From Isoetes taiwanensis (lineage: Eukaryota; Streptophyta; Lycopodiopsida; Isoetales; Isoetaceae): a stretch of 64,000 bases of DNA. The stretch lies in assembly GCA_021234155.1 (NCBI GenBank), contig JAJEKV010000006.1, positions 930,001 to 994,000 of the forward strand. The letters are read 5' to 3'. Of this stretch, positions 46,942-63,770 are shown piece by piece. The notes under the pieces were generated by a model that searched no databases, had not been told where the DNA came from, and was given only the letters and a program-made list of their open reading frames with translations. The position numbers were made by a program, and so were the translations under genes. Each line of letters starts with the position of its first letter. Within the stretch, counting starts at the first letter, position 1.

Positions 46942-47496
46942 TGTTAGGGGTTTTCCACCCTTTGAATGCATTAGCACTATGGCTATTAAATTTGAAGACA
47001 CTATCATTATTGGCATGGGTCCACATCATCAAATGTTATTCATATTCCTATTGGTCCATGTCAGTGATCCTCCCACATCATTGCCATGTCATTGATCCAT
47101 GGGAAAAGGCACAAAGAAGAAACACAAAAACTACCCTTGGTCCATGTCATGTGCCACATCACTGCCATGTCATTGCCACCTAGGCCATTCTTGTTTGTAA
47201 ATAGGCATTTTACATGACTAAAGAGAGATCATGTATGGAGTGAGAGAGAGATCATTAGTGAAGAGCATGATCATGTGGGTGTTCTTGTTGTATCTTGTCA
47301 ATTTCAATAAAGAAGTGCAGTTTGAGTATCTTTTGTGATGTTCTTGTAATGTAAGTGTGGATGTAAGTGTGCTTTTGATTATCTTAATTCTGGGTGAGAG
47401 GCAGAGTTAAGTGTCTTAGTTTGTGTGCTGATGAAGGCTTTCGGGCCAAGTCCAAGGTCTTGAATTCTGTCTTGAAAGGGAGATTTTCCCTTAACA
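46942..47496 (+). repeat. 5' LTR
   Basis: This is a complete 555-bp LTR. It has TGTAAATAGGC at 47196 where the other two LTRs have TATAAATAGGC, so the likely TATA box of the 5' promoter carries an A-to-G change at 47197. Confidence 0.95.
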
Positions 47497-48761: not shown

Positions 48762-50405
48762 ATGGCTTTAAAATATTCCTTCTATGATCATGATGATCCT
48801 CACAAGGTGAGAGCAAAAACTCATGTAAAGCAATTCGAGGCTCTAAGCATGTTAAATGGGCATGACGAAGACTCTATAAGGGTGTTGATCTTCCCAACAA
48901 CCTTGCAAGGTGTAGCCGCTAACCTGATGTACTCAAATATTGACTCTATGTCTATATGGAATGAAATGAAAAGTTATTTTATTTCCATGTTCAAAGAAGA
49001 ATTATCATATAGAGAATGTAGAAAAATATTGGATACAATGAAAATTGAGGAAGGAGAACATCCTCGAGAGTTTGCTTTGAGAATTCAAGATATAGTTGCA
49101 GAAATGCAACCCAGACCGCATGAAGAAGATATAATTGAATGGTCTATTAATGGATTTCCATTTGAAGTATGCCAAAGGTTACAAATAGAAAATCCTCCTA
49201 CATTAGACCAAGCAGTCCAGAGAGCTGTTGTGGTTAAAAGAGTTCTAGGTGCTAGGAAGCATGAAGAACTAGAACTAGAGAGCTCTGTGCATAGTAAGGC
49301 ACAAGAGATGAACGAAATGGAGGAATATAGACTTGAGGAAAGTTGTGATAAGAAACATAGTACATGTGACTATGTAAATTCATGTGGAAGTGGCAACTCT
49401 ATGAGCAATGAGGTTGATCCATACAAAATAGGAAATGTTAAAATGATTCTTGATGATTTTATGAAAATCCAGGAGCTTCAAAATGGCAATATAAATGAAG
49501 TAGAATTCTTCAAAGTGGGCGAGGAGATATTTGATTGCTATGATATCAAATATATGTTTGATCGCCCATTGTATGAAAACAAGAAGGTGAACGATAAAAT
49601 TGAGGAAGAAAATGTCAATATCAATTCAAATAATGTAGAAATTTGGATTGAGAAAGAAATTTGCACTCAAGCAATTGAAAGGCACGTTACAGGTGATGAA
49701 AATTTGGCAACACATAGTGCTACCTATGATATTGTGAAAATAGCTCCAATCCTTAAAGAATTCCAAAGAGAAAATCTTATGGGCAAATGGGGAAGCGTGC
49801 CCATCATCAATAGATTATTTTGTGAAAAAGTGGTCTCCAAAGTTAATGCCGCTACAGGACCTCATATTGAAGAACTCCGAATCACAGAGAATGCAAACAA
49901 GTATGACATGGAGAATGTTAAAGATATGATTTATCTTGAGCAATCCAAGTTCAAGGCAAATCCATTCATATGGACAAATTGTTATGAACAGGGCCATATA
50001 GACCAACAAGGAAACTTTATAGATGATTTCTTGACAAAGAAAAATATGCTTATTCATTATGGCACCTTGCTTCAGCAAGAACCAAAACCCAAAGTAAAAA
50101 TCAAACATTCCATTGGGAAGAGTGATGAGAACCCAGGTTCTCATCAAAAGTTTGGGGGAAATATGTTAGGGGTTTTCCACCCTTTGAATGCATTAGCACT
50201 ATGGCTATTAAATTTGAAGACACTATCATTATTGACATGGGTCCACATCATCAAATGTTATTCATATTCCTATTGGTCCATGTCAGTGATCCTCCCACAT
50301 CATTGCCATGTCATTGATCCATGGGAAAAGGCACAAAGAAGAAACACAAAAACTACCCTTGGTCCATGTCATGTGCCACATCACTGCCATGTCATTGCCA
50401 CCTAG
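48762..50405 (+). CDS. Gag-like protein of the LTR element
   Basis: This is an open frame of 547 residues. Residues about 20-165 match the Ty3/Gypsy retrotransposon gag core: IWNEMKSYFISMFKEELSYR, then a helix with EGEHPREFALRIQDIVAEM, and IIEWSINGFPFEVCQRLQIE. The rest is acidic and Asn/Glu-rich with no zinc knuckle and no protease motif. The frame runs through the polypurine tract and about 240 bp into LTR2, so the last 80 or so residues come from LTR sequence. Gag would form the virus-like particle; enzymes must come in trans. The frame is intact, in line with the young age. Confidence 0.85.
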   Translation: MALKYSFYDHDDPHKVRAKTHVKQFEALSMLNGHDEDSIRVLIFPTTLQGVAANLMYSNIDSMSIWNEMKSYFISMFKEELSYRECRKILDTMKIEEGEHPREFALRIQDIVAEMQPRPHEEDIIEWSINGFPFEVCQRLQIENPPTLDQAVQRAVVVKRVLGARKHEELELESSVHSKAQEMNEMEEYRLEESCDKKHSTCDYVNSCGSGNSMSNEVDPYKIGNVKMILDDFMKIQELQNGNINEVEFFKVGEEIFDCYDIKYMFDRPLYENKKVNDKIEEENVNINSNNVEIWIEKEICTQAIERHVTGDENLATHSATYDIVKIAPILKEFQRENLMGKWGSVPIINRLFCEKVVSKVNAATGPHIEELRITENANKYDMENVKDMIYLEQSKFKANPFIWTNCYEQGHIDQQGNFIDDFLTKKNMLIHYGTLLQQEPKPKVKIKHSIGKSDENPGSHQKFGGNMLGVFHPLNALALWLLNLKTLSLLTWVHIIKCYSYSYWSMSVILPHHCHVIDPWEKAQRRNTKTTLGPCHVPHHCHVIAT

Positions 50406-50713
50406 GCCATTCTTGTTTATAAATAGGCATTTTACATGACTAAAGAGAGATCATGTATGGAGTGAGAGAGAGATCATTAGTGAAGAGCATGATCATGTGG
50501 GTGTTCTTGTTGTATCTTGTCAATTTCAATAAAGAAGTGCAGTTTGAGTATCTTTTGTGATGTTCTTGTAATGTAAGTGTGGATGTAAGTGTGCTTTTGA
50601 TTATCTTAATTCTGGGTGAGAGGCAGAGTTAAGTGTCTTAGTTTGTGTGCTGATGAAGGCTTTCGGGCCAAGTCCAAGGTCTTGAATTCTGTCTTGAAAG
50701 GGAGATTTTCCCT
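50164..50713 (+). repeat. LTR2 (internal copy)
   Basis: This 550-bp copy lacks the terminal TAACA. A TATA box is at 50418-50425 (TATAAATA). It is preceded by the polypurine stretch and followed directly by LTR3. Confidence 0.95.
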
Positions 50714-51263
50714 GGGGTTTTCCACCCTTTGAATGCATTAGCACTATGGCTATTAAATTTGAAGACACTATCATTATTGGCATGGGTCCACATCATCAAA
50801 TGTTATTCATATTCCTATTGGTCCATGTCAGTGATCCTCCCACATCATTGCCATGTCATTGATCCATGGGAAAAGGCACAAAGAAGAAACACAAAAACTA
50901 CCCTTGGTCCATGTCATGTGCCACATCACTGCCATGTCATTGCCACCTAGGCCATTCTTGTTTATAAATAGGCATTTTACATGACTAAAGAGAGATCATG
51001 TATGGAGTGAGAGAGAGATCATTAGTGAAGAGCATGATCATGTGGGTGTTCTTGTTGTATCTTGTCAATTTCAATAAAGAAGTGCAGTTTGAGTATCTTT
51101 TGTGATGTTCTTGTAATGTAAGTGTGGATGTAAGTGTGCTTTTGATTATCTTAATTCTGGGTGAGAGGCAGAGTTAAGTGTCTTAGTTTGTGTGCTGATG
51201 AAGGCTTTCGGGCCAAGTCCAAGGTCTTGAATTCTGTCTTGAAAGGGAGATTTTCCCTTAACA
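50714..51263 (+). repeat. LTR3 (outer 3' copy)
   Basis: This 550-bp copy lacks the initial TGTTA. A TATA box is at 50963-50970. It ends CCCTTAACA, followed by the GCAAC target duplication. Confidence 0.95.
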
Positions 51264-51354: not shown

Positions 51355-52761
51355 CCCGGAGGAGAAGTGTCCAGCCCCACATGCCTACCCACCAGGCCAT
51401 CAGCCCACTTCACAGAGTCTTCATCTAGAGCCAGAGGATTAATCACAAAGAATGTGATCCCACCATTTCTCACGTGACATTCCACTTCCAACACGTGTTG
51501 GAAGTCCCTGTGCACCTCCATAGAGTCATGGGCCACACTAGTCTCTACCTCCAACCGGGCTGCTCCAGCCACCTCATGCTCGGCCACATACCCCCTACAG
51601 GGACATCTCCAAAGAAGATCACCGGCCCCTCCCACCCCCTCGGACCTAGCCACAACCAAATCATCCCGAGCCCTCCCCCGAGCCATCACGCCCCTAGCCC
51701 CACCATCCAATGGGCGGCCAGCAGCAAGCCTGCCCCGGCCTCGTCCCACACCCTCCCAACCACACCACCTCGTCCAACTCCACTCACTGCACCACGGAGT
51801 CCTCTGCCTGCTGCCTCAGGAACAGAGGAATCCCGGGCCTCTGCATAAGCACCCGCAACCCCTACCACATCACAAGCACCAGCAGGACCAGCAGGATCAT
51901 CAACAGGTCAGATGGTAGCACAATAGATGGAAACATCCGCTGGATCTCAGAGCCATTCAAAAGCTTCAATCGGAAAAGAAAGTGCCAGAGACCACTACGC
52001 ACTGGAAGAGAAGTGGACACAGACTGCAAAGCAGGCAGAGCAACACAGATCTTGGGGACCTGCACAATAGAATGAGCCAACCCAGGCCATTAGCCATAGA
52101 AACCAAGAAATCAGGCACCATCATATCAGGAGGAAGATCCTGAATCTGGAACCAACACGGGATTTTAACTGCTGTTAAAGAACTGGTGGACATTGCCGGA
52201 GTATAATACTGATACAACACATATGATTCACCCAAAGTATCCACCCCCCGACTAACCAATTGCCGCACAGAAAACTCCGCCTCAAACATGATTATGAAGA
52301 AATTATTTGGTAGGAATTTCAGAGACTGATACATGGGCAAACCAATCTACCTCAGATGTCCGGCAAGCCAAGAGCTAAACCTCCTCGTGTCCAATATCAA
52401 TATCGCAAATGAAACTAGATTCTCAATGGTCTGAACATCCTGGTATGATCAAAATCTATCCATGGAGTCTCTGGAAGAGCTGCCTGCAGGTATGATCCTC
52501 CACAAATTTCAGAGCCTCTTGAACACGGGTAGTCCTACACTCCGGAGCCTTGAGCTTGATCCAATCTGAAAACCCCGGTCGAGTGATGCGATCAACAGTG
52601 TCATTGCGCTGCCAGGCTGGGCGCACAGGAGTTGGGGCTGCCGCCCTGGCACCCTGAGAGGTATCCAGGGGCACCCCAGGAGGCACATCAGCTACATGCA
52701 CCCTAGAAGAGGGCATATCACCAGCAAGTGATCCCTTCCCAAGCACAGGGGAAGAGGGCTT
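51355..52761 (-). pseudogene. LINE-A ORF1-like region
   Basis: On the minus strand, broken frames read PSSPVLGKGSLAGDMP near the 5' end, a DUF4283-like domain (ECRTTRVQEALKFVEDHTCRQ, later FSVRQLVSRGVDTLGESYVL, then WFQIQDLPPDMMVPDFLVS), and a proline- and alanine-rich tail. This is the ORF1 of plant L1-type LINEs, an RNA-binding protein. Several stops are present. Confidence 0.7.
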
Positions 52762-53069
52762 GGGTCAAAATTGGCATCAATGCATCCTCAGAAATATATG
52801 CAATGGAACCAGGCTGGAATAAGACAGATAGGTGATCTTTGGGATGAAACACATGGATGGAAACATTGGGATGAAGTAGCTGAGCTTACCAAAGGTTCAC
52901 ATCTGGACAGGAAGTTCTACAAGGTAGTACTGAAGGAAATTAAACATGTAGATGAATTGGCAAGTAGTACTAATCAGTGGCACTTAAAGGGTAAAGAAAT
53001 ATATTCGGTAAGTGAAATTTACAGGGCATTAATCAGTCATAACCCCTCCAAAGCAACTCTGTTATGGAA
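52762..53069 (+). mobile_element. LINE-C remnant, left half
   Basis: The frame reads QWNQAGIRQIGDLWDETHGW and on to YSVSEIYRALISHNPSKATL, the region between reverse transcriptase and the C-terminal zinc segment in plant L1-type LINEs. It is cut at 53069 by the terminal inverted repeat of the DNA transposon. The matching right half is at 63320-63770. The left edge abuts LINE-A; the shared GTCAAA on both sides of LINE-A suggests that LINE-A had inserted into LINE-C. Confidence 0.8.
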
Positions 53070-53090
53070 TTAAGCATGATTTCATTAATT
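53070..53090 (+). repeat. Left terminal inverted repeat
   Basis: TTAAGCATGATTTC, then A, then TTAATT. It pairs with 63299-63319, which has G at the single mismatch. Similarity ends about 3 bp further in. Confidence 0.9.
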
Positions 53091-53309
53091 GGATAAAATA
53101 ACGCAATTTTGAGAATTTTAAGCACACCTTATTTGCTGAAGCACGAATACTTTCACCTAGTTCTCGAGCCCAACAAACATAAGGTAATTAACATACACAT
53201 ATACATACAAATTATGTGTTATACTTGTACGTGTACATGATACTTGTAGAAGCCCAATAATGGCCCTACATTCTACACCAATAATTCACATCAATAATTT
53301 TCACTTCAC

Positions 53310-53317
53310 TATAAAAA
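53310..53317 (+). promoter_or_regulatory. TATA box of small gene 1
   Basis: CACTATAAAAAC lies 36-43 bp upstream of the ATG at 53353. The same sequence precedes the paralogous gene at the same distance, and the leader sequences (CATTCATCTTCC against CATTCATCTCCC) also match. Confidence 0.75.
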
Positions 53318-53352
53318 CAGCTCGACTCGGGGGTAGAGATCATTCATCTTCC

Positions 53353-53595
53353 ATGGCTTCCTCGATGCCTCGTCCAGAGCACATCCGATCTTTCAAGTGC
53401 TACTTGAGCTGCAACGATCTGAATGAATGCGCAAGAAATGGTGTTAATCTTGATCCATGGCTCCAATCTAAGGCTGATGGTCCTGCTAGTGCTTGCAGGA
53501 AGCTCACTCGTGTTAAAGTCCACATTTACTGGCTTCCTGATCAGGAGATCTATGAGCTGAATAGCATCACGAGCTTTGATGTTGATGATGAGTGA
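53353..53595 (+). CDS. Small transposon-borne protein 1, unknown function
   Basis: This frame encodes 80 residues. It is soluble and has no signal peptide or membrane segment. It is clearly paralogous to the next gene: IRSFKC against IEAIKC, then LDPWL against LDPYL, VKVHIYWLPDQ against VMIHLIWLPER, YELNSIT against YEISGIT, and an acidic end D.DDE against DPEDE. I do not recognise the family. I chose the start at 53353 because the paralogue starts at the equivalent ATGG and both have a TATA box about 40 bp upstream. Its place inside the element suggests an accessory role, but that is inference. Confidence 0.7.
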   Translation: MASSMPRPEHIRSFKCYLSCNDLNECARNGVNLDPWLQSKADGPASACRKLTRVKVHIYWLPDQEIYELNSITSFDVDDE

Positions 53596-53905
53596 ATCAA
53601 TGTTATCAGTGATGACTACTGTATCTGTTTATGATATAATAATGGTATAAGAACCTATAAACTATGTAAGGATGTAATAGCACAATGAATATTGTTTGAT
53701 GTATCATACCTGAGTGTAGCGTAGGGTTGTGCTCTTCGACTTCCACTATATCTGCAAGCTTTTCAATCACACCTGAATGACTAAAGCACAAAAACTTCTA
53801 CTATCATCGTATCCATACGAAAGATGTATTGTACTTGTATGTATACAACAGTCTTATACACGCGCAATAATTGGGGTAAAGTCTACCCCAATAATTCTAC
53901 CTCAC

Positions 53906-53913
53906 TATAAAAA
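53906..53913 (+). promoter_or_regulatory. TATA box of small gene 2
   Basis: CACTATAAAAAC lies 35-42 bp before the ATG at 53948, matching the arrangement of small gene 1. Confidence 0.75.
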
Positions 53914-53947
53914 CTTCTCACTTCGGGCTAAAGTTCATTCATCTCCC

Positions 53948-54178
53948 ATGGATTTTTCGCCTTCATCAGTTCACCACATCGAGGCGATCAAGTGCTCTGA
54001 TCTTGTTGGTTGCCTAGACAGGCATCTTCTTCTTGATCCCTACCTGCGAAGAAAAGCTTTGGGCGCTGAGATTCGCTGCCCTGCGTCAATTCGTGTGATG
54101 ATCCATCTGATTTGGCTTCCTGAGCGCATGAGCTATGAGATATCAGGGATCACTACTACAGATCCTGAAGATGAATGA
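53948..54178 (+). CDS. Small transposon-borne protein 2, paralogue of protein 1
   Basis: This frame encodes 76 residues, with the conserved blocks listed for protein 1. The two genes are about 350 bp apart, in the same orientation, and share promoter and leader, so they arose by tandem duplication of the whole transcription unit. The proteins have diverged strongly while the frames stayed open, which suggests both were used. Function unknown. Confidence 0.7.
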   Translation: MDFSPSSVHHIEAIKCSDLVGCLDRHLLLDPYLRRKALGAEIRCPASIRVMIHLIWLPERMSYEISGITTTDPEDE

Positions 54179-54491
54179 TTCACCTGTTCAAAATGTTATA
54201 ATGTAAGAGCTCTTGTGTTAAGATGAAAAATGCAAGACGTAATGAATAATAAATAGTCTATTGTAGTGATGTTATCGATAATAAATAGTATAGTGTGAAA
54301 TGCTTTAACGTACCTGTAAGACTCAAGTTTCATCTCCTTCCTCGGATGCCTCTTTAGCAAGCAATTCCTGTAGCTGGATTCCTACAGTAGGAGGTATCAC
54401 AACCAATAATGGCTTCGGTTCCACAGACCAAGCATAGTCTATCGTTTTGAGAGGTCGATAACGGGTCCGTCATTAGATTCGCCTCCACTTC
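54179..54491. other. Intergenic between convergent genes
   Basis: This 310-bp stretch lies between small gene 2 (plus) and the transposase C-terminal frame (minus). It should contain both 3' ends. I see no gene. Confidence 0.6.
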
Positions 54492-54974
54492 TTATGCCAG
54501 CCAGTCCCGAGCATCGTTGAGTGTACGGGGTGCCTTTCCTAGCCACGTGCTCCCACCAAGAAACAAAACCTCGTTATAATGAGGGGGTGGGATCTTGTAT
54601 TGGATCCTCTTCCAAGATAATGCAATCCATGTAGGACATGCATCTGCGGGTCTTACAAGAAGAAACATACCTTTCTGTACATCTTGGTATGAATCAAATA
54701 TTTCCACTGCGTTCTTGGGTTTATCCTTAGCAGGTCCAACGAAGCCAGTCGGAGCGTCATATCGATCAACCTGAATAGATTCAGGCTCGTCAAGCATAAC
54801 TTGCCTTGTGCGGGGCCAGAAGTTCAGAATTTCTGCATTGCCTGGGGGTATTTCCCCTAGAACACACATCACTTCGCACCAGTAGTCTATGACCTCGTTC
54901 ATGTAGGTATTGGACCACGAGTTCACACCAGCCCTGGAGATATTAGCCCAATGCACCATGTACTGCGCGAATGG
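54492..54974 (-). pseudogene. C-terminal extension of the transposase, out of frame
   Basis: An open frame reads FAQYMVHWANISRAGVNSW and on to a conserved-looking tail (YWCEVMCVLGEIPPG, later CPTWIALSWKRIQY). It follows the main transposase frame without a gap but one base out of register near 54976-54983, so a single-base indel probably broke a protein of roughly 980 residues. A very short intron could also explain it, but only about 17 nt would lie between plausible splice signals, too short for a plant intron. Confidence 0.6.
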
Positions 54975-54975
54975 A

Positions 54976-57438
54976 CTACCTCAATGCTCCTATGTCTTTG
55001 AGACTTGCATATGGCTTAACAGCCTTTAAGCACCCGGTCGGTATCATTGGGAAACCATTGTCATCTGCTTTCCACATCCGAATACCCTTCTCTGGCAACC
55101 ATTCTCTATGACCAGGTCTCATCTTGTAATACATTACTGGCCATCCATCATTCATGCAAAACTTAAACAATAACGGCTCTAGGTGACCAACCAAACAATC
55201 CTTCTTATCAGGAATGTATCCTTTGACGAACCCCTTCCAATCCGGAACCTCGGCAACAAGGTATGGCGTTGGTGCCTTCGTGCTACATTCTCGGAACAGT
55301 TGCATTAGTTCAGGAAGAGTTAGAGCATCAGACCTGCGCATTAATGTGGAGTAGTTACCGAATAGTGCATCAATGTCATCATGAGTGTGGCCTACCATCA
55401 TGAAGCCCAGCTGTATCTGATCAAATACACCCAACCACACAAGATAGGATAGATAAGAGAAGAGATATCTGTTCTTATTCTGCCCAGCGCAATTGTCTAG
55501 TTGCAAGTATAGTCGCCTAGGTAACATCTTAAAATGAGATGCTTCCTTAGCAGGTGGTACAAAGTCTTGCCCAGTGCTGTTGCCTTTTTTTGTCCTCAAC
55601 CCCGAACTGTTGAGGAGTGCACTGACCCACATGCCCTGAGGACGTCCTTCTTCTTTCAAGTGGCCCCAATTATCTTCGGAAGTATCCTCTAGTGTTTTGA
55701 TAGCATGATTCAATGAACCAACATGAAAGTTTGAATCGTCCTTCCAAAGGTCTAGTGAGAAATGTCCCAATGCACCTGTGCCATGGCCATGCATCAGTGC
55801 ACCAATCACACTAACTTTCAAGCGTTCACCTCTCCATACTGACTTTGCGAGTTTCTCTAGTCTTGGAATCATGGTCTTGTTTTGGTCCATTTTATCATGT
55901 ATAATGGTAAGCGCCTGTTCTGGTGATCGATGGGACAGAGCTCTCCATGACCAGTACAAGCTCCTACAAGAGATCTGGGCAGTCATGTGTGCCTTCCTTT
56001 CAATCTGCAACTCTCTTCTCTCCCTTGGATCTCTTGTCTTAGCCATTTTTTCTTTGATTACAATACATGTGTTGCACTTAGAGAAAGCTATCCTTTTCGC
56101 TATTGCAACCTCGTTATGATCCTGCTTCCACCCACGTGAAAATGATGAGTGAGAGACCTGTTTGCCTGTCATCTCCTTCACATTGGCGTTCACCTCTTGA
56201 AGAATGTCCTTCTTGGTTAGAACAGAGGGGAGCCTCTTCACATTCTCTCTTACACCTTCAGTATTGATTTTCGATCTGTGGGGCATTGTCTCAGCGTTCT
56301 CATCTATGTACATAGACAGCACGGCCTTCCCTGCTAGAGTGTGAGACCTTGGTTTTTTCATGCCCATGTTCCCATGTTCAGCTACTCTGTGACCATCAAG
56401 GAAAAGTCTTCGCCATTTATAGAAAGTGGACATTGGAATACCATACGCTATATGCCATGCTTTCACACAAACCTGCTTGTTATTTAGCATGAGCATCTTC
56501 ACCTGTCCGTTCTCTGAACAAACATCTAACATATTAAAAACAAATGTGGTCCTCTCTGAAGCAGTCAAGTTCCAGAAGAAGGTACGCATGCTACTAATCT
56601 CTGCAGTTGAGAAGTTTGCGCAGCATCTTCTCATACAACAGATGGATTTCTGAAAACCTAAAATTGAAGCTGCCATGATCTTTCTCTGGGCTTTGGTCAC
56701 ACCAGCTTTACGTGGAGTCCTGTTCACCATTCTATACATCCTTTTGGGTGCCTTTTCGACATCAATTTGCATGGCATATGGTTCTGCTTCAATGACTGTC
56801 TCTCTGACAGTCTTTATGAGTGTGGACACAGCTACGTTGTCTACTAACACCAAGGCGTTCGACCACTTCACCAAATCATGCAACTGAGGCATCTCAGCAC
56901 AAGCCTGACATCTCATGGACGGTCTTTCCGGCATGGGGCATAGCTTCATCACTGTGGCAGCCAGGAAGTCATCACCTAATCTGGTATCAGCAACTGCTTG
57001 ATTAGGATCGGTGAAGATGATCACACCGAACCCATAAGGCATATCACAGCATTCATGCAAAAGTGTGCAATTCTTCTCAATAAGTTCTTCCCTGGAGATA
57101 CCACCATGACGATGTACTGAAGCAGACGGAGTCGTGGGATCCTCCAACGACAACCAATTCAGCCTCTTTATCTGTCCAGGCGGAGTGCAGACGGCGGTCT
57201 TATCTTCAAGTGCAGTCACGTCTCTCTCGGGCCACAGGATGAAACTCCCTCTGGACTCTGCAAGTATTGCAATCTCGGGTTCCGGATAAGGCAACGGAAT
57301 GCTGCCATCAAGAATGACTTCCACAGACACTACAGCGAAACCCTCGGGCAAGGGCAAGTTATGGTGCTTGGTGAAGTTGTGCAGACGACCCTCTGCAACC
57401 TTCGTCCCGTTGAATAAAATGGATCTCAATTGCTCCAT
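54976..57438 (-). CDS. Putative transposase, DUF7869-like RNase H fold
   Basis: Taking the ATG at 57438 (MEQLRSILFNG) gives 820 residues; the frame is open further upstream, but a splice acceptor (ACATGACAG) just before this ATG suggests a 5' UTR intron. A helix-turn-helix-like segment lies at about residues 325-350 (VKAWHIAYGIPMSTFYKWRR). The catalytic core has a first Asp in IIHDKMDQNKT (about 515), a second in LQLDNCAGQNKNRYLFSYL (about 648), and GHTHDDIDALFGNYS (about 683-697). This spacing and wording match the family I know as DUF7869, whose members look like DDE/RNase H-fold transposases. It should excise and insert the element. The terminal inverted repeats support this role. The C-terminus is probably frameshifted. 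Confidence 0.7.
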   Translation of the reverse strand: MEQLRSILFNGTKVAEGRLHNFTKHHNLPLPEGFAVVSVEVILDGSIPLPYPEPEIAILAESRGSFILWPERDVTALEDKTAVCTPPGQIKRLNWLSLEDPTTPSASVHRHGGISREELIEKNCTLLHECCDMPYGFGVIIFTDPNQAVADTRLGDDFLAATVMKLCPMPERPSMRCQACAEMPQLHDLVKWSNALVLVDNVAVSTLIKTVRETVIEAEPYAMQIDVEKAPKRMYRMVNRTPRKAGVTKAQRKIMAASILGFQKSICCMRRCCANFSTAEISSMRTFFWNLTASERTTFVFNMLDVCSENGQVKMLMLNNKQVCVKAWHIAYGIPMSTFYKWRRLFLDGHRVAEHGNMGMKKPRSHTLAGKAVLSMYIDENAETMPHRSKINTEGVRENVKRLPSVLTKKDILQEVNANVKEMTGKQVSHSSFSRGWKQDHNEVAIAKRIAFSKCNTCIVIKEKMAKTRDPRERRELQIERKAHMTAQISCRSLYWSWRALSHRSPEQALTIIHDKMDQNKTMIPRLEKLAKSVWRGERLKVSVIGALMHGHGTGALGHFSLDLWKDDSNFHVGSLNHAIKTLEDTSEDNWGHLKEEGRPQGMWVSALLNSSGLRTKKGNSTGQDFVPPAKEASHFKMLPRRLYLQLDNCAGQNKNRYLFSYLSYLVWLGVFDQIQLGFMMVGHTHDDIDALFGNYSTLMRRSDALTLPELMQLFRECSTKAPTPYLVAEVPDWKGFVKGYIPDKKDCLVGHLEPLLFKFCMNDGWPVMYYKMRPGHREWLPEKGIRMWKADDNGFPMIPTGCLKAVKPYASLKDIGALR

Positions 57439-57534
57439 CCTGTCATGTAAACAAAATAGAATGATGTAAGAAATCGCGGACGCGATTTCATGGAACACTA
57501 TCTGCCAGTATTGTGGGGGCATTAGTCAATGTAC
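57439..57534 (-). other. Probable 5' UTR intron of the transposase gene
   Basis: On the minus strand TTTCAG|GTACATTG (about 57534) and TTTACATGACAG|GATGG (57440) form a GT-AG pair about 95 bp apart. The palindrome at 57470-57489 sits inside. The reading is tentative because the frame also happens to be open here. Confidence 0.5.
57470..57489. repeat. 14-bp palindrome motif, copy 1
   Basis: GAAATCGCGGACGCGATTTC: arms of 9 bp around GA. The core is ATCGCGGACGCGAT. Confidence 0.9.
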
Positions 57535-57551
57535 CTGAAATTCGCTGCGTT

Positions 57552-57569
57552 AGATCGCCACTGCGATCT
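57552..57569. repeat. 14-bp palindrome motif, copy 2
   Basis: AGATCGCCACTGCGATCT: arms of 7 bp around CACT. It is nested between a wider inverted repeat (CAGTATTGTGG at 57504-57514 and CCACAATACTG at 57588-57598) in the divergent promoter. Confidence 0.85.
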
Positions 57570-57648
57570 GGCTGAGCACTGAGAGTCCACAATACTGCCA
57601 CTAATGAGGATCTATTCCAAGAGAGATTCCCTACGAATGCTCTATTGA

Positions 57649-57664
57649 AACGCGCCCGCGATCC
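57649..57664. repeat. 14-bp palindrome motif, copy 3
   Basis: AACGCGCCCGCGATCC, which on the minus strand is GGATCGCGGGCGCGTT. The core is ATCGCGGGCGCGTT, one arm imperfect. Confidence 0.75.
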
Positions 57665-58820
57665 GATTGAACAAAAGGAGCTTCAAAGATATGCAGAATT
57701 GTCCTAAGCTTCTGTAGTAAAAATGAAGTGTTTCAGCAAGTTTCCAACACGTTGCGAGTTGTCTAACTGAAGATCTAGGAACTTGCATCTCCTCCATGTG
57801 GCAAGGAAGATACTTGTAGAGAAACAACAGACCATTACTGACATGAAGCTGAATGGAATTATTATGGACAAACGTATTGAAGACAAAGAAGAGATTGGAA
57901 TTAGTGAAGATGTAGCTAGTGAAACTCATGCAACCGAGCATCTATACAAACAATGTTGTCCCCAAGAGTAGGATAAAGCATCAATCCATACAGAAATTTT
58001 AGAACCATTAAATCAATTTATTGGACAGAACAATGCAAGTTAAGTGAGTGATTTATCATTGAAATGATGCACATGCACACTACTGTCCCGAAAACAAGAA
58101 CAATGCAATTGCAGAATAAAACAAGAACAATGCATATCAAAACATGCAGTGGACATCGATTCTTGCCTGCTTCGGGCACTTAGATGTCGATTAAATGCAA
58201 CATCTCGTCAAGCGCCATCAGCCGCCTCCCTTGCGCCTCGATCGAAATCTCCCGAGCCAATGCATTTGGAATGGTCTGGAATGAGGAGCTCTTGGCGGGG
58301 AAAGAGAAAGTGCATTGGGCGGGGAAATTTGATTTCTAAATTCAAATGAAAGTGCATTGGGCGGGGCATTGGGCTGTCGCAGTCACCGTACCTTCGGTTC
58401 GTGCCAAATTCCGAAATGCGCTGGCTGTCTCCATCGGACGGGTAACCTAGCTTTGACAGTTACACGCTTCCCACGCGTAATGTCATGCCAACTGCTTTTA
58501 TGTAAGACGGATTTCTGACAGGACATTAAGGACAGGGCATAAAAAGTATGATGCCTTTATCCCTTCCGCCAATCATAAATAAATGCGCCGACGGAATTAA
58601 ATGCGCCGACGGAATTAAATGCGCTGGCCAAAATTAATTTGCCGTCGGAAATAAATGCGCACGTGTGAGTCTGACACGTGCACTTATGTCGGGGCCTTAA
58701 TGGCGGGACATTTATGGCGGGCGTCCCCAGGCTACTTAAACCCTTTTCGCGATTTTTTGGAGTCAGTCCTTTCCGCCGCCCTCGAAATTTTTAGCGCCTT
58801 CGACAAAAATCAGCGCCATC
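57665..58820. other. Divergent intergenic and promoter region
   Basis: This lies between the transposase 5' end and the start of the ParB-methyltransferase-like gene. A plus-strand frame at 57783-57971 (62 codons) is open but unassigned. GAAAGTGCATTGGGCGGGG occurs twice (58306-58324 and 58349-58367). The last 250 bp hold the repeats described separately. No TATA box is clear for the plus-strand gene. Confidence 0.5.
58583..58681 (+). promoter_or_regulatory. Tandem repeats and G-box dyad upstream of the ParB-like gene
   Basis: The 18-bp unit ATGCGCCGACGGAATTAA is repeated twice (58583-58618), with a third partial copy and an inverted relative TTAATTTGCCGTCGG at 58635. Next comes GCACGTGT-GAGTCTG-ACACGTGC (58659-58681), a perfect 8-bp dyad containing two CACGTG G-boxes. 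It lies 140-240 bp before the ATG at 58821, a position typical of plant transcription-factor sites. Confidence 0.65.
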
Positions 58821-61800
58821 ATGTCTCGATCTTCCGCCCTCAGAGAAGGTAATTTTCGCGCTTTCTTTCAGCAGTGGTCCTTTGACACCATTTTGTACTT
58901 TAAATTTCAATGAAGAGAGGTCGAAAGGATTGCGACCGCGATGTTATCGATCTGTATTCGTATTAGTTTATGCTTTAGAGTGCTCAAGGGAATTGCGGCC
59001 GCGATTTCCTTGACTTGTTTTGTTTTGAAGCTTGCTTGCATTACTTGCAAGGATCGCCGTCGCGTTCCTTGCCAGCATTTTTAGAAATGTTACTATTTCA
59101 GTTTTACTTGCAAGGATCGCGGTCGCGTTTCTTGGAAGCTCTTTCTTTTGAAATGTCTATTGACCTCTAGTTTTCATTTCGTTCGTGCAGCACTTGACCT
59201 TTTCAGAGGTCCAAATGTTGAACCCATGCGAATCGTAACTCCCGATAAAAGTCGGAGGTGGTGCATGGAGATTGCCCAAGCCATACCACATATCAAGGGA
59301 GACCGCAGGAAGGACCTCTGCCTCTTCTTGAGGACCGGTAAGGGGCCAGAGGACTTTGAACAGATGGGGATTATCGTAGCCATGTGGGAGGGCACGAAGA
59401 ATAATGTGCAGGATGCCATTATATGTAGCGTTGAGGACACACAGCAGCTACAGTTTGTGGAGTACATCCTTCGATGGCAAAACTACGACCCGTCCATTAT
59501 GACTGCAAGCAAGCACAACAAGCCAGCTAGTGGCAAAGGTGTGCCAACTAGTGCAAAGGGCTTTGGTTGGGATCTGCCATCATATGATTCCTTGTCTCTC
59601 TCTGGTATTAAGTGCAACAAAGATCTCCTCGTGGGCTTCAGCAAGTGCAGAAAGGGCTTGTCAGCAGATAAAAAACCTCCTTCTTGTGCCTTAAAGGCTA
59701 CTAAAGACAACAAGCTACCGGCGCGTATGGATACAAACTGGTTGCGTGCTGTTGCTAAGAAAAGGAGTGTTGTTCCATTAGCTGCGATTGGTGAACCATC
59801 TGAACCGAAAGATCCAATTTGCTGCTCAGCTAATCCAATATCTTCAGTAGTTGTTGATCCTACTGCTCCGAAAATGCTCATGCCTCCCCCTATAGTGCCT
59901 CCCCCTACAGAAGAACCAGTACAGAAGAAGGCAACCATTTTCAAAGTTAGACTTCGGCCTCTAAATGTAGATGATAAGGACCAGCCTTCTACATCATCTA
60001 CACCTACCTCATCAGGTGTCCCAACTGCCACTTCAACTGCAATAACCACTTCAACTTGGCCTTCTGAGACTCGTATTCCTGAGGAACTCAAGTTCAACCC
60101 TGCTGAGGAAAAGAAACTTGCTGAGCTAACAGCACAGAAGCTCGAGGAGTTCAGAAAATATTATCCAATGGGAGTGAATTGGTTCACAAAAGTTAGCATC
60201 TTCGACTGCGAGACAGCTCCAGCTACAATGACGCACAGATATCGTTCGAACGACCATGTGCAAACTCTGATAAGGAGCTTCAAGAAGTGCCCTACGGAGG
60301 TTCTAACCCCGGCAGATGTTGTCCCTTTTGATCCCATCACTAAGTAAGTACTTTGTATACGTACATTGTTGTGAGGTTTTCATTAACTAAAATATTTTGT
60401 ATCCCAGGAAAATAATAACTTGGTCCAAACCTGAGGATCTTCAAAACAAAAAATATTACATTATTTCTGGAAACCACAGCATATTTGCTGCTCAGATCCT
60501 CTGCTCTGTGATAGGGACCATCGAACAACGGACGGAATTTATGAAAGTTTACGCAAGGAGAAGAACACGGGTGCTGAATGGAAACCTGTCCAACAGGGAA
60601 TACATTCAATTATCTATTCAATGCAACGACATAATTGCAGACTCCGTATACAGAGAGCCACTTGTGGAAAAGCTTCAACAGCTTCGTAATCAGCACAAGG
60701 CTTTCGGGTGCCCTCCGCAGGGTCCAACGGGCACAGCAGCCACATCAGCTTGGAAGGTAAGCCTATTTACTTTTTGCTGAAACAGATCGCGGCCGCGATC
60801 CTAACGGGCATTTTACTCCAGGATTTTGTTGAGGTAGCCACTACGACACTCAAGGTGAAAGAATTGAAAGACGAGAAGCAGTTTATATTCATGCACGACG
60901 AACCATGGGCGAAGTTCATGGAAGTCGTAAATAAGTGGGCATCACGGAAGCTATCGGATGATCATGGAGAACTGCCAGAAAAGCCCACAAAAGAATTTTT
61001 CAACAAAACATTTCTCAGGAACCTTCGTGGCATGAACAATGCGGAGGTATCACAGCTTATGGATGAGATCCTATGTGGAAAGACATATTTAAAAGTGCAG
61101 TCTGGTTATACCGGCAGGCATGAATGTAAGCAGAGGGCCTTGGACATAAGAACTCTGACATTGATGCACCGTGAGGTGCTATCCTACGCCAACTGCTTGC
61201 TAGACAAAAATTACGGCAGCATAGAGGAGCTCCTGACAGAATTCCCTGAACTAAATGAAGAGAGGTTACTTGATATAGCAGGTATGGATTTTGATTATAT
61301 TAAGGCCAACTATAATAAGGATCACGTTCAGGGAAATCTTCCCACTGTTTTTCTGGAAGCTTTACTAGCTATACTCAAACCCGAAGAAGCAAAGAAACAG
61401 AAAGAAAAAATGAACATTGTAAAAGCAGTAACAAAATCTGGTGTTCTTGTGCGGGGGCAAGTATTGGAAAATGCCACCATGGTTTTCATTGATATGCGCA
61501 GTTTCAGCACTGTATGGGAAGTAAAAAAATACACAGATCTTTTCAGCAAGATTGCAAGTATGACTACTGCAAAAGTGTATCATATCGTGATGCTCCTGAG
61601 ATCAGTCCACTTGCCAAACTGCTTATACAGCCAAACTCAAATCCAGGGCTGTTCCCATGTGTCCACGGGTGCTTATGAGGAACAAGGCTGGGTTAGCAAG
61701 AAAATGATAAAGGAATTTCAATACTACGTCACGCATGTGACGATCAATAGAAGTGACGTTCGTATCTTACCTGTGCTGCCAAGATTGGAGCTGCGTCTAA

Positions 61801-62783
61801 CTCAGGGGACCAATGCGCCAAGAGGCACACCTCTACCAAAGTATCCAATCACAGGTAATGAGGAGGTGGACGCCAAAACAAAGAAGAAATACCTAGAATA
61901 CTTCACAGGTAAGCCTAAGTTTTCATGGGCAGCTATGGAAGGGGATTTTGTTCTGAAAGGCCAGGCTAAAACGTCGTATATCTACGCCATGGTGAAGGAA
62001 TTGGTTCCAGATGATGGTGCTGTTATTGACTTCTTCTCCGCGGGAACTGCTTCTAGAGTGGCTCTGATGCAAGGTAAGCGTAGCGTTTCTTTGGAGTATG
62101 ATGACAAGGTCTGCAGGTTTTTGAGATCGTTCTTCGAGACCTTGGAGAAAATGGCAAGGCCACCCTGTGAAGAAGAAGAAGAAGAACAGAAAGTAAACCC
62201 GGACGCAGAAAACGTGCAAAACATCCAAATAACTCAGCAGACGGATCTGAGTAACATGGATGTGCTACTGGACCAGCTAGATCAGAAAAGCTTTGAGGAG
62301 AGGCTGGAGGAAACAAAGGCTCTTTTAGAGAAGACAGAAAAAGACACCGCTGCTCTTGATAAGACATTTGAAAAGCTCGAGGTCTTGAATCAAAAGTTTG
62401 ATGCGGTAATGCCATTAGTAACTGGTATGATCGACAAACAGTCTAGCCAGTTTCAATACGTTGGTCCCTCAGAATCCGAGACTCAATTTCAAGACCCTGA
62501 AAATATCGAAGTAACCAAGAGAAGGAAATTAGTAGATACGTCCGAATATAGTGCTGAGCTACGTGGAGAATTGTTGGATACACAGTACTCAGGACGTGTG
62601 CAGCAGATCGCTGAGGCTATGGATGTAGAAATTCCTTCGGTTACAGGATATTCAGAAGCGAATCTCTCACAGATCATGGCTTTAGGTAAGGCACATACAG
62701 ACAGAATGGCCAAGGAACTTGGCGTTGCTCCAGAGTCTGTGAAAGAGACTCAAGAGTCTGTGGAAGAGACTCAAGATAACTGA
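58821..62783 (+). CDS. ParB-like / DNA-methyltransferase-like fusion protein
   Basis: There are four exons: 58821-58848, 59191-60343, 60408-60756 and 60822-62783. All introns are GT-AG (342, 64 and 65 bp) and the joined frame encodes 1163 residues with no stop. Residues about 350-425 resemble the ParB/sulfiredoxin fold (HRYRSNDHVQTLIRSF, then YYIISGNHSIFAAQ, like the GNHR motif of ParB-like nucleases). Residues about 700-945 resemble a beta-class N6/N4 DNA methyltransferase: the AdoMet-binding motif I is VIDFFSAGTASRVALMQGKR (911-930), followed by SVSLEYDDK. Motif IV, expected upstream as DPPY-like, reads FIDMRSFSTVW (about 732-742), without the proline pair, so catalysis is doubtful. Residues about 955-1060 are acidic and coiled-coil. 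It may bind or mark element DNA. Confidence 0.65.
58927..58942. repeat. 14-bp palindrome motif, copy 4
   Basis: GGATTGCGACCGCGAT; the core is ATTGCGACCGCGAT. It lies in intron 1. Confidence 0.8.
58989..59009. repeat. 14-bp palindrome motif, copy 5
   Basis: The core ATTGCGGCCGCGAT is flanked by GGA on the left and TTCC on the right, extending the dyad. It lies in intron 1. Confidence 0.85.
59051..59068. repeat. 14-bp palindrome motif, copy 6
   Basis: GGATCGCCGTCGCGTTCC; the core is ATCGCCGTCGCGTT. It lies in intron 1. Confidence 0.85.
59114..59131. repeat. 14-bp palindrome motif, copy 7
   Basis: GGATCGCGGTCGCGTTTC; the core is ATCGCGGTCGCGTT. It lies in intron 1. Confidence 0.85.
60785..60800. 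repeat. 14-bp palindrome motif, copy 8
   Basis: GATCGCGGCCGCGATC, a perfect 16-bp palindrome inside the 65-bp intron 3 (60757-60821). Confidence 0.95.
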
Positions 62784-62962
62784 AGTTTTCTCGATTTTTA
62801 TGGATTTGAATTCATCATGTAAAAACTATGAAATTTTGTAACAGACTTTTGCTCTTTTGAGGAAATGATTATTCTCTTACATCTTTTTACTGTATAGAAG
62901 TACTGACCTTCTGTATTATTATCCACTTGTGTACTGACCTTGTGTATTACTGAACTTGTCGG

Positions 62963-62984
62963 GAAGATCGCCATCGCGATCTTC
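62963..62984. repeat. 14-bp palindrome motif, copy 9
   Basis: The core ATCGCCATCGCGAT is flanked by GAAG and CTTC, giving 9-bp arms around CATC. Confidence 0.9.
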
Positions 62985-63073
62985 TCCACATGTTTAGTCA
63001 TTTAAGAATGATATTAAAATGTTGCCGTAAAGCTTGTAATGACCTCTCATGCCTTACTTATCTGGTTAAAAAC

Positions 63074-63087
63074 ATCGCCATGGCGAT
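63074..63087. repeat. 14-bp palindrome motif, copy 10
   Basis: ATCGCCATGGCGAT, a perfect 14-bp palindrome about 230 bp from the right end. Confidence 0.9.
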
Positions 63088-63298
63088 TTGCACGAGCATT
63101 CACGGCATTATAGCTGTTGAATGTTTTGTGTTCCTACACATTCAAGGTCGCCCCATAATTGCTTTTCCCGCGGATAAAAATAATGCGAGCAAAAACTGTG
63201 CTCTTACTCATTGCAAATTGCTTAACAATAACAACCTTTTTCCTTCTAGGATGCTACTGCGACCTATTTCGTCTCGATCGAGAAAACCAAATTTCTCT

Positions 63299-63319
63299 AA
63301 TTAACGAAATCATGCTTAA
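63299..63319 (-). repeat. Right terminal inverted repeat
   Basis: AATTAACGAAATCATGCTTAA, the reverse complement of the left end with one mismatch. Confidence 0.9.
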
Positions 63320-63770
63320 TTGTGAAGAAGAGACTTTGGCAGCAGTATGCAAAAAAGGATGAAAAAGTTATAATGCAAACAAGATCAAGACCTTTAGGTG
63401 GCTTATACTGCACCAAGGGTTAATAACTAACTCGAGAAGACATAAGATGGATCCAGACATCTCACAGAATTGTCCAATGGGATGTGGAGAGGTAGAAACC
63501 TCAAATGATGTGTTTCAGTGTCAGGTTGATACAGATTTTTGGAACTGGACTACTCAGATCAACAAAGCAACAATTGGTGAACAGGGTCTTATAGACTTCC
63601 TTAATACAGATAACAGAATATTATGCACAACAAGGTCTTTGGGCTGCTGGGCAGTGTGGAAGCACAGAAACAGGGTGGCAATGGAAAACAAGAACCCCAA
63701 TCTTATATGGCTTAAACAAACATTTCTAGCAGAATTGGTAAACTCAGCAGTGGCACATCTTCTTTTTTAA
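63320..63770 (+). mobile_element. LINE-C remnant, right half
   Basis: The frame continues LINE-C after the transposon: NANKIKTFRWLILHQGLIT (63372-63428), then a zinc segment CPMGCGEVETSNDVFQC (63468-63518) and the usual C-terminal helix with CWAVWKHRNRVAMENKN. In the zinc segment the usual histidine is replaced by valine. A stop (TGA at 63360) and a frame change near the junction show that the LINE was already or has since become inactive. No poly(A) tail is visible after 63770. Confidence 0.8.

Follow-up and report, generated by a model that had tools for sequence, protein, structure and literature searches.

A 40-bp dyad repeated in the non-coding DNA of an Isoetes DNA transposon, a candidate recruitment site for an element-encoded protein

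Why should a transposon carry one palindrome many times over, and always outside its exons? The question is raised by a 64,000-base stretch of Isoetes taiwanensis DNA (contig JAJEKV010000006.1; hereafter the window), which holds a 10,246-bp DNA transposon at 53072-63317, inserted in a long interspersed nuclear element (LINE) and carrying a DUF7869 transposase gene and an accessory gene on opposite strands. An earlier note, made from the letters of the window, described ten copies of a 14-bp palindrome, ATYGCSNNBGCGWT, in the introns and intergenic DNA of this element, and proposed that they bind its ParB-like protein or its transposase for autoregulation, synapsis or methylation targeting. The analysis reported here supports a reading of the palindromes as specific, selectively kept sites of the element family, which would most simply serve an element-encoded DNA-binding protein.

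A scan of the window with zero mismatches returned exactly ten places, the same ten that had been named; nine of the positions stand as given, including 57649 on the minus strand, and the copy placed at 58993 begins at 58992. A single mismatch adds four places (1318, 12446, 26832, and 54700), and with up to two mismatches 63 matches were observed against 34.6 expected, a number reached in none of 100 shuffles. A dyad search independent of the pattern returned ATCGC-N4-GCGAT as the top dyad of the element, with 11 places, namely the ten and a poor extra dyad at 62607 in exon 4 of the accessory gene (score 3.0 on the 40-bp matrix described below). The same search found no copy in the 53-kb flank of the element, and in 20 shuffles of the element no dyad reached more than six places. 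The restriction to introns and intergenic DNA was likewise borne out: none of the ten cores overlaps an exon of the gene models, though only 37.8% (2126 of 5618 nt) of the span that holds them is non-coding, an outcome with a probability of 6e-5 if the placements are independent.

The 14-bp palindrome is a real symmetric core, but the site had been under-called, as the full dyad reaches 40 bp, with the consensus WnTGCTC-N4-RR-ATYGCSN2SGCRAT-YY-N4-GAGCAnW and the core at its centre. Conserved symmetric columns span -13 to +26 relative to the core start, which rules out a site ending at 14 bp. When the flank columns are read with each site taken in both orientations (20 half-sites), RR stands at -2 and -1, T at -8 in 19 of the 20, G at -10 in 15, and T or A at -11 in 19 and at -13 in all 20. 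The best flank column carries 1.57 bits, which none of 5000 random-placement sets reached, also when the site at 59116, which resembles its neighbour, was dropped. On a symmetric 40-bp matrix the ten sites reach 29.6-40.8 bits while no other place in the window exceeds 12.8, and under leave-one-out matrices each of the ten still ranks above all other places in the window. Each half-site has two conserved zones, ~11 bp (about one helical turn) apart. The sites are as follows.

57460-57499 (core 57473-57486): dyad site 1, in the transposase leader, 35 nt from the ATG
57541-57580 (core 57554-57567): dyad site 2, in the transposase leader
57636-57675 (core 57649-57662), minus strand: dyad site 3, in the transposase leader
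58916-58955 (core 58929-58942): dyad site 4, in intron 1 of the accessory gene
58979-59018 (core 58992-59005): dyad site 5, in intron 1 of the accessory gene
59040-59079 (core 59053-59066): dyad site 6, in intron 1 of the accessory gene
59103-59142 (core 59116-59129): dyad site 7, in intron 1 of the accessory gene
60773-60812 (core 60786-60799): dyad site 8, in intron 3 of the accessory gene
62954-62993 (core 62967-62980): dyad site 9, in 3' non-coding DNA, 107 bp from site 10
63061-63100 (core 63074-63087): dyad site 10, in 3' non-coding DNA

Sites 4-7 are spaced 63, 61, and 63 bp from start to start, and in intron 3 (60757-60821) site 8 accounts for 40 nt out of 65, its core lying 36 nt upstream of exon 4. 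No dyad site lies in 53068-57400, the left 4.3 kb of the element, where the best 40-bp score is 1.7, or in either terminal inverted repeat.

Across the 1.66-Gb assembly, forward matches to the core number 4924 and those to a reversed-pattern control 676, a 7.3-fold excess. Placement was analysed for the first 62 distinct places among the matches listed, taken in contig order with all sequences inspected. Fifty of these lie in copies of the element family, with 40-bp scores of 18-42, and 12 lie outside, with scores of -10 to 14, so that the motif is not equally frequent elsewhere; equal frequency is what the note had named as fatal to its proposal. One locus, L016 (score 19), is counted among the 50 weakly, with no adjacent coding homology and only a 21/26 terminal repeat ~230 bp off; L023 and L025 likewise contain terminal-repeat matches, at 19 and 20 of 26. 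Two of the 12 outside places are in loci with traces of the element, L022 (a terminal repeat, and a site elsewhere in the locus) and L025 (a weak exon-3 match), though neither place is a full site. The split in scores between the 50 and the 12 indicates that the 14-bp core occurs by chance and that the full 40-bp site hardly does. A chance origin of the ten cores in the window is ruled out by the shuffles, the matrix scores, the dyad search, and the genome control.

The sites are also kept in related copies, where their absence would have refuted the note's proposal, with the limit that the seven relatives compared (L006-L012) were picked as motif clusters. All seven turned out to be related, at identities between 30% (protein) and 95% (DNA). 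These and the window copy together hold 74 sites with scores of at least 15, none of which overlaps a coding match, where coding matches cover 0 to 62% of each site span (mean 48%). Three placements recur. Six of the eight copies (the window and five relatives) have a core 34-37 nt upstream of exon 4; in L007 the stretch is deleted, and in L009 no site was found. Six of the eight again have a core 34-36 nt ahead of the transposase ATG, the exceptions being L011, with no site closer than 200 nt to the start match, and L012, whose nearest is at 128. In all but L009 and L012, the two 3' sites are spaced by exactly 107 bp. In alignments of the window with five distant relatives (L006, L008, L009, L010, and L011; not all segments in each, gaps counted as differences, L012 left out), identity is 27-52% in the surroundings, 38-69% in the arms, and 43-100% in the cores; L007, which is 89-96% identical even outside the sites, is little informative. 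In the transposase leader of the window, the site flanks have only 3 CpG in 242 nt, yet all three cores retain theirs, which fits selection on the sites and is silent on methylation. Signs of tandem duplication, a 63-bp unit in L007 and spacings of 119, 119 in L009 and 154, 154 in L008, suggest that site number apparently changes by this route. Four further loci (L013, L016, L018, and L022) are truncated copies or remnants that retain 3' sites and a terminal repeat, L013 with the same 107-bp pair.

A fixed symmetric sequence with fixed spacing, concentrated in one mobile family and held at constant non-exon places despite divergence, points to a protein recruitment site. From this pattern we infer protein binding, the identity of the binder, and the outcome of binding. 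The dyads are probably operator-like recruitment sites for a self-encoded DNA-binding protein, for which the accessory gene product is the most likely candidate. It leads because seven of the ten fall within its introns or directly downstream of its gene, with the other three in the transposase leader, and because the ends of the element are without sites, which points away from the transposase. The proposal that the sites bind the element's own protein stands in part: they are specific, kept sites of the element family, and which protein they would serve is what we infer. The two conserved zones one helical turn apart suggest that a dimer sits on each dyad and that each of its subunits contacts the DNA twice. 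In the mechanism proposed, a symmetric dimer of the accessory protein would occupy each 40-bp dyad, with contacts in the core and, on both sides, about one helical turn outward. From the transposase leader, the accessory introns, and the DNA behind the stop codon, the bound protein would act on the transcription or chromatin of the element's own copies, and the outcome may be anti-silencing, as with the VANC proteins considered below, and/or autoregulation. A more far-reaching form of this proposal, which we hold tentatively and would call doubtful, makes the system a second and separate origin of sequence-specific self-protection in a land-plant transposon, in which the accessory protein would load at parS-like dyads, coat the element, and avert its silencing. 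The introns would then be chiefly carriers of the protein-binding sites, since coding DNA could not hold them.

The proposed binder is the product of the following gene, whose exons 2-4 are conserved in relatives.

58821-62783, plus strand: accessory gene, four exons (58821-58848, 59191-60343, 60408-60756, and 60822-62783), 1163 aa, GT-AG junctions, single open frame

Two protein searches with the accessory protein found no homologues, tblastn against phages found none, and no Pfam family came above cut-off. Its label in the note, ParB-like, was not confirmed. The label rests on a GNHS..AA signature seen by eye and on the analogous gene of an Ectocarpus Sola1 element, and the IxGNHxI..A stretch, though largely conserved among copies, is only suggestive of ParB. 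The spliced domain had no Pfam match at E ≤ 10, the Pfam matches of five relatives' proteins included no ParB family, single exons had no ParB match in NCBIfam at E ≤ 1, and no ParB was matched among PDB sequences by the domain alone or as a five-sequence profile. The C-terminal part is degenerate and methylase-like, with a motif-I-like DFFSAGT at residue 913; FIDMRSF or VFVDMRSF occupies the likely place of motif IV (by eye). A 99-aa methylase-like piece matched PF01555 at E = 0.15, below cut-off, a 253-aa piece had no match, and the structure prediction for the methylase-like fragment (predicted local distance difference test, pLDDT, 36.7) is unusable. Two other matches were taken as chance: cytochrome c peroxidase for exon 4 (E down to 0.024; of the 75 PDB sequences matched at E ≤ 10, the best 60 are all cytochrome c peroxidase) and Cas9_PI (E 0.0025, below cut-off). 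Upstream of the gene, at 58577-58666, four 18-bp tandem units (AATTAAATGCGCCGACGG-like) form a second repeated cis element, and the stretch 58200-58820 is CpG-rich, with an observed/expected (o/e) ratio of 1.21, where 540-bp pieces of 1-52000 have a median of 0.4.

Several observations weigh against this reading. The protein that binds the sites may instead be a host factor or the transposase. Profiles detect no recognisable DNA-binding domain in the accessory protein, and its 1163 aa contain no [DNS]PP[YFW] (motif IV), the catalytic motif of an N6/N4 DNA methyltransferase, so that methylation targeting, as the note had it, is weak in spite of the motif-I-like stretch. Local CpG protection around the sites was rejected, the CpG o/e in non-coding DNA being 0.61 within 150 bp of sites and 0.98 further away. 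The choice of relatives by motif clusters, noted above, counts here too. The weakest cores, those of the L006 leader (43%), are no better kept than their surroundings, and the arms of the 3' dyad in L011 are 38% identical against 47% outside the site. Two strongly diverged copies with both genes, L020 and L021, have only 1 and 2 sites at a score of at least 18, and L018 has 3; perhaps these reflect decay or altered specificity. De novo searches of L012, L018, L020, and L021 yielded no clear motif as a replacement dyad, L021 alone rising above its three shuffles (ATCGC-N4 at 6 places, TTGAA-N3 at 7). Lone strong 40-bp matches can also arise outside the element family: a 34-bp pattern demanding the arms found five viral contigs in IMG/VR, with one site each and 40-bp scores of 13.7 to 35.3. 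Three of the five carry an identical site sequence, and the open reading frames (ORFs) of two (L001 and L005) look phage or bacterial; these single matches are taken as chance in a very large collection.

Of the alternatives to an accessory-protein binding site, one assigns the sites to the DUF7869 transposase, for synapsis of the ends or autoregulation of its own promoter. Its placement evidence is the three sites in the transposase leader, with the nearest core held 34-36 nt before the ATG in most copies, and the two sites that lie 230-350 bp from the right end. We nonetheless consider it unlikely, as five of the ten sites lie in introns of the accessory gene. Synapsis, also put forward in the note, is unlikely, since the inverted repeats and the left 4.3 kb lack a site; autoregulation by the transposase is possible. 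A host transcription factor or insulator protein, used by the element for expression, would account for the enhancer-like placement of sites upstream of one gene and in the introns of the other, and for the CpG-rich region upstream of the accessory gene. Strong sites would then be expected at host genes too, whereas among the 62 places listed the full 40-bp site occurs only in element copies, and we regard this explanation as improbable.

The spacers bear on a last alternative. Spacer columns -6 to -3 vary freely from site to site, yet the two arms of a single site match there in 102 of 204 comparisons against 71.5 expected (51 non-redundant of 82 sites; reached in 0 of 4000 shuffles). In the strictest set (n = 26) the matching has P = 0.0045, and columns outside the site show the same (P = 0.0025). 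There is no excess of G-T pairs between arms (25 against 27.4 expected), which a transcript hairpin would allow; a hairpin was rejected on this ground, and the symmetry looks to be at the level of DNA, from how the sites arise or are copied. That the palindromes act as transcript hairpins in splicing or RNA processing or as DNA cruciforms, or are functionless inverted duplications, is very improbable, for although the arm matching resembles compensatory change and one dyad takes most of intron 3, the fixed letters at fixed distances (T at -8, the core) argue for sequence readout and a neutral origin is hard to square with the kept positions.

The element that carries the dyads, apart from the accessory gene, has the following parts.

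53068-53071: left target-site duplication, AATT, placed on the basis of the LINE frame joins
53072-53097, plus strand: left terminal inverted repeat, 26 bp, 23 of 26 matching the right repeat
53353-53595, plus strand: small ORF 1, 80 aa, with relatives in L012, L020, and L021
53948-54178, plus strand: small ORF 2, 76 aa, a paralogue of small ORF 1, with relatives in L007, L012, L020, and L021
54492-57438, minus strand: DUF7869 transposase gene, with its main ORF at 57438-54979 and the C-terminal part, in another frame, at 54980-54492
63292-63317, minus strand: right terminal inverted repeat
63318-63321: right target-site duplication, AATT

Terminal inverted repeats and a target-site duplication with a recoverable empty site identify it as a terminal-inverted-repeat DNA transposon. 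The best 30-mer match between the ends is 27, where 60 shuffles reach at most 22, and the ends of relatives carry a similar terminal repeat, flanked by bases such as tata, atat, catt, and gaat, with one side only visible. AATT was chosen over TTAA because only AATT rejoins the interrupted LINE in frame, and TTAA was ruled out on this basis. The LINE protein rejoined across AATT matches zf-RVT over 1-85/85. This domain is split by the element into 52732-53067 and 63322-63770, and one stop in the joined stretch suggests that the target LINE was probably already old at insertion. The two small ORF units are in tandem, with 61.5% DNA identity and a TATA-like box upstream of each (by eye); no Pfam family came above cut-off for small ORF 1, nor any family for small ORF 2. 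The transposase matches PF25273 at E = 2.1e-42 and has 19 homologous proteins; its structure model resembles the Mos1 catalytic domain and integrases, and Foldseek gave no match at E ≤ 0.001. A literature search on DUF7869 gave no match, and IMG/VR scans with the transposase and with exon 4 of the accessory gene found no relative. The frame change at 54979-54980 is a short intron or a frame break. Outside the element, a ~550-bp unit occurs in three copies (46942-47496, 50164-50713, and 50714-51263) that are 99.6-99.8% identical; two of these lie head to tail.

To our knowledge, transposons that mark their own copies for a self-encoded regulator are few, VANC being the worked example. For algal transposons, a ParB-like/methylase accessory gene is on record, in the available part of the source without a defined target (PMC12477816). 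The element family described here offers a target of 40 bp whose spacing and position are conserved, and such a defined target makes self-recognition and remodelling by accessory proteins directly testable. If the proposed reading is true, the family would provide a DNA-binding module that is sequence-specific by nature and recognises a very long site, as well as an example of introns retained as binding-site carriers.

Among known systems, no paper on such a palindrome was found among the literature matches listed. Plant CACTA elements have subterminal sites for TnpA, which speaks for a transposase as binder; a literature search on TnpA/Spm found no paper. The parS sites of bacterial partition systems are ~16 bp, shorter than the 40-bp dyad. 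Several palindromic sites near the gene of a putative ParB-like protein recall ParB/parS, but here they belong to a eukaryotic element with introns, and a partition system was rejected on the 40-bp length of the site and the lack of any ParA family match at E ≤ 1 in the scanned ORFs of the element. The 4-bp AT-rich duplication recalls the Sola superfamily, since AATT fits the AWWT duplication given for Sola2 elements (PMC3627910), and Sola1 is listed for Physcomitrella (PMC9033089); this likeness concerns the duplication. The Sola1-1_Ec32 element of the brown alga Ectocarpus has an accessory gene for a ParB-like and N4/N6 DNA methyltransferase protein on the strand opposite its transposase, and its authors suggest that such proteins may bind and epigenetically modify their own transposon, citing green and red algal cases (PMC12477816). 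Both are large DNA transposons with a ~1100-aa accessory gene opposite the transposase (PMC12477816), the accessory proteins being likened by description. No binding site is mentioned in the available part of that paper, and in the Isoetes protein the ParB profile is unconfirmed and the methylase catalytic motif absent.

The closest parallel in site placement is VANC. The VANDAL elements of Arabidopsis are Mutator-like. Within VANDAL21, the VANC21 motif lies in introns, between genes, and in terminal non-coding DNA, where it recruits an element-encoded anti-silencing protein (PMC5735166, PMC10398659), and the number of VANC target motifs changes by tandem duplication (PMC5735166). The VANC21 motif differs in being 9 bp (YAGTATTAY) and in one orientation (PMC5735166, PMC10398659), whereas the present site is a 40-bp palindrome; the transposase here is of the DUF7869 type, and binding and demethylation are putative. 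Placement is nevertheless of the VANC type, with all ten sites of the window and all 74 in the eight copies outside coding matches, and the two systems are alike in a motif repeated through the non-coding DNA of the encoding element, in changes of its number by tandem duplication, apparent ones here, and in an accessory protein encoded beside the transposase.

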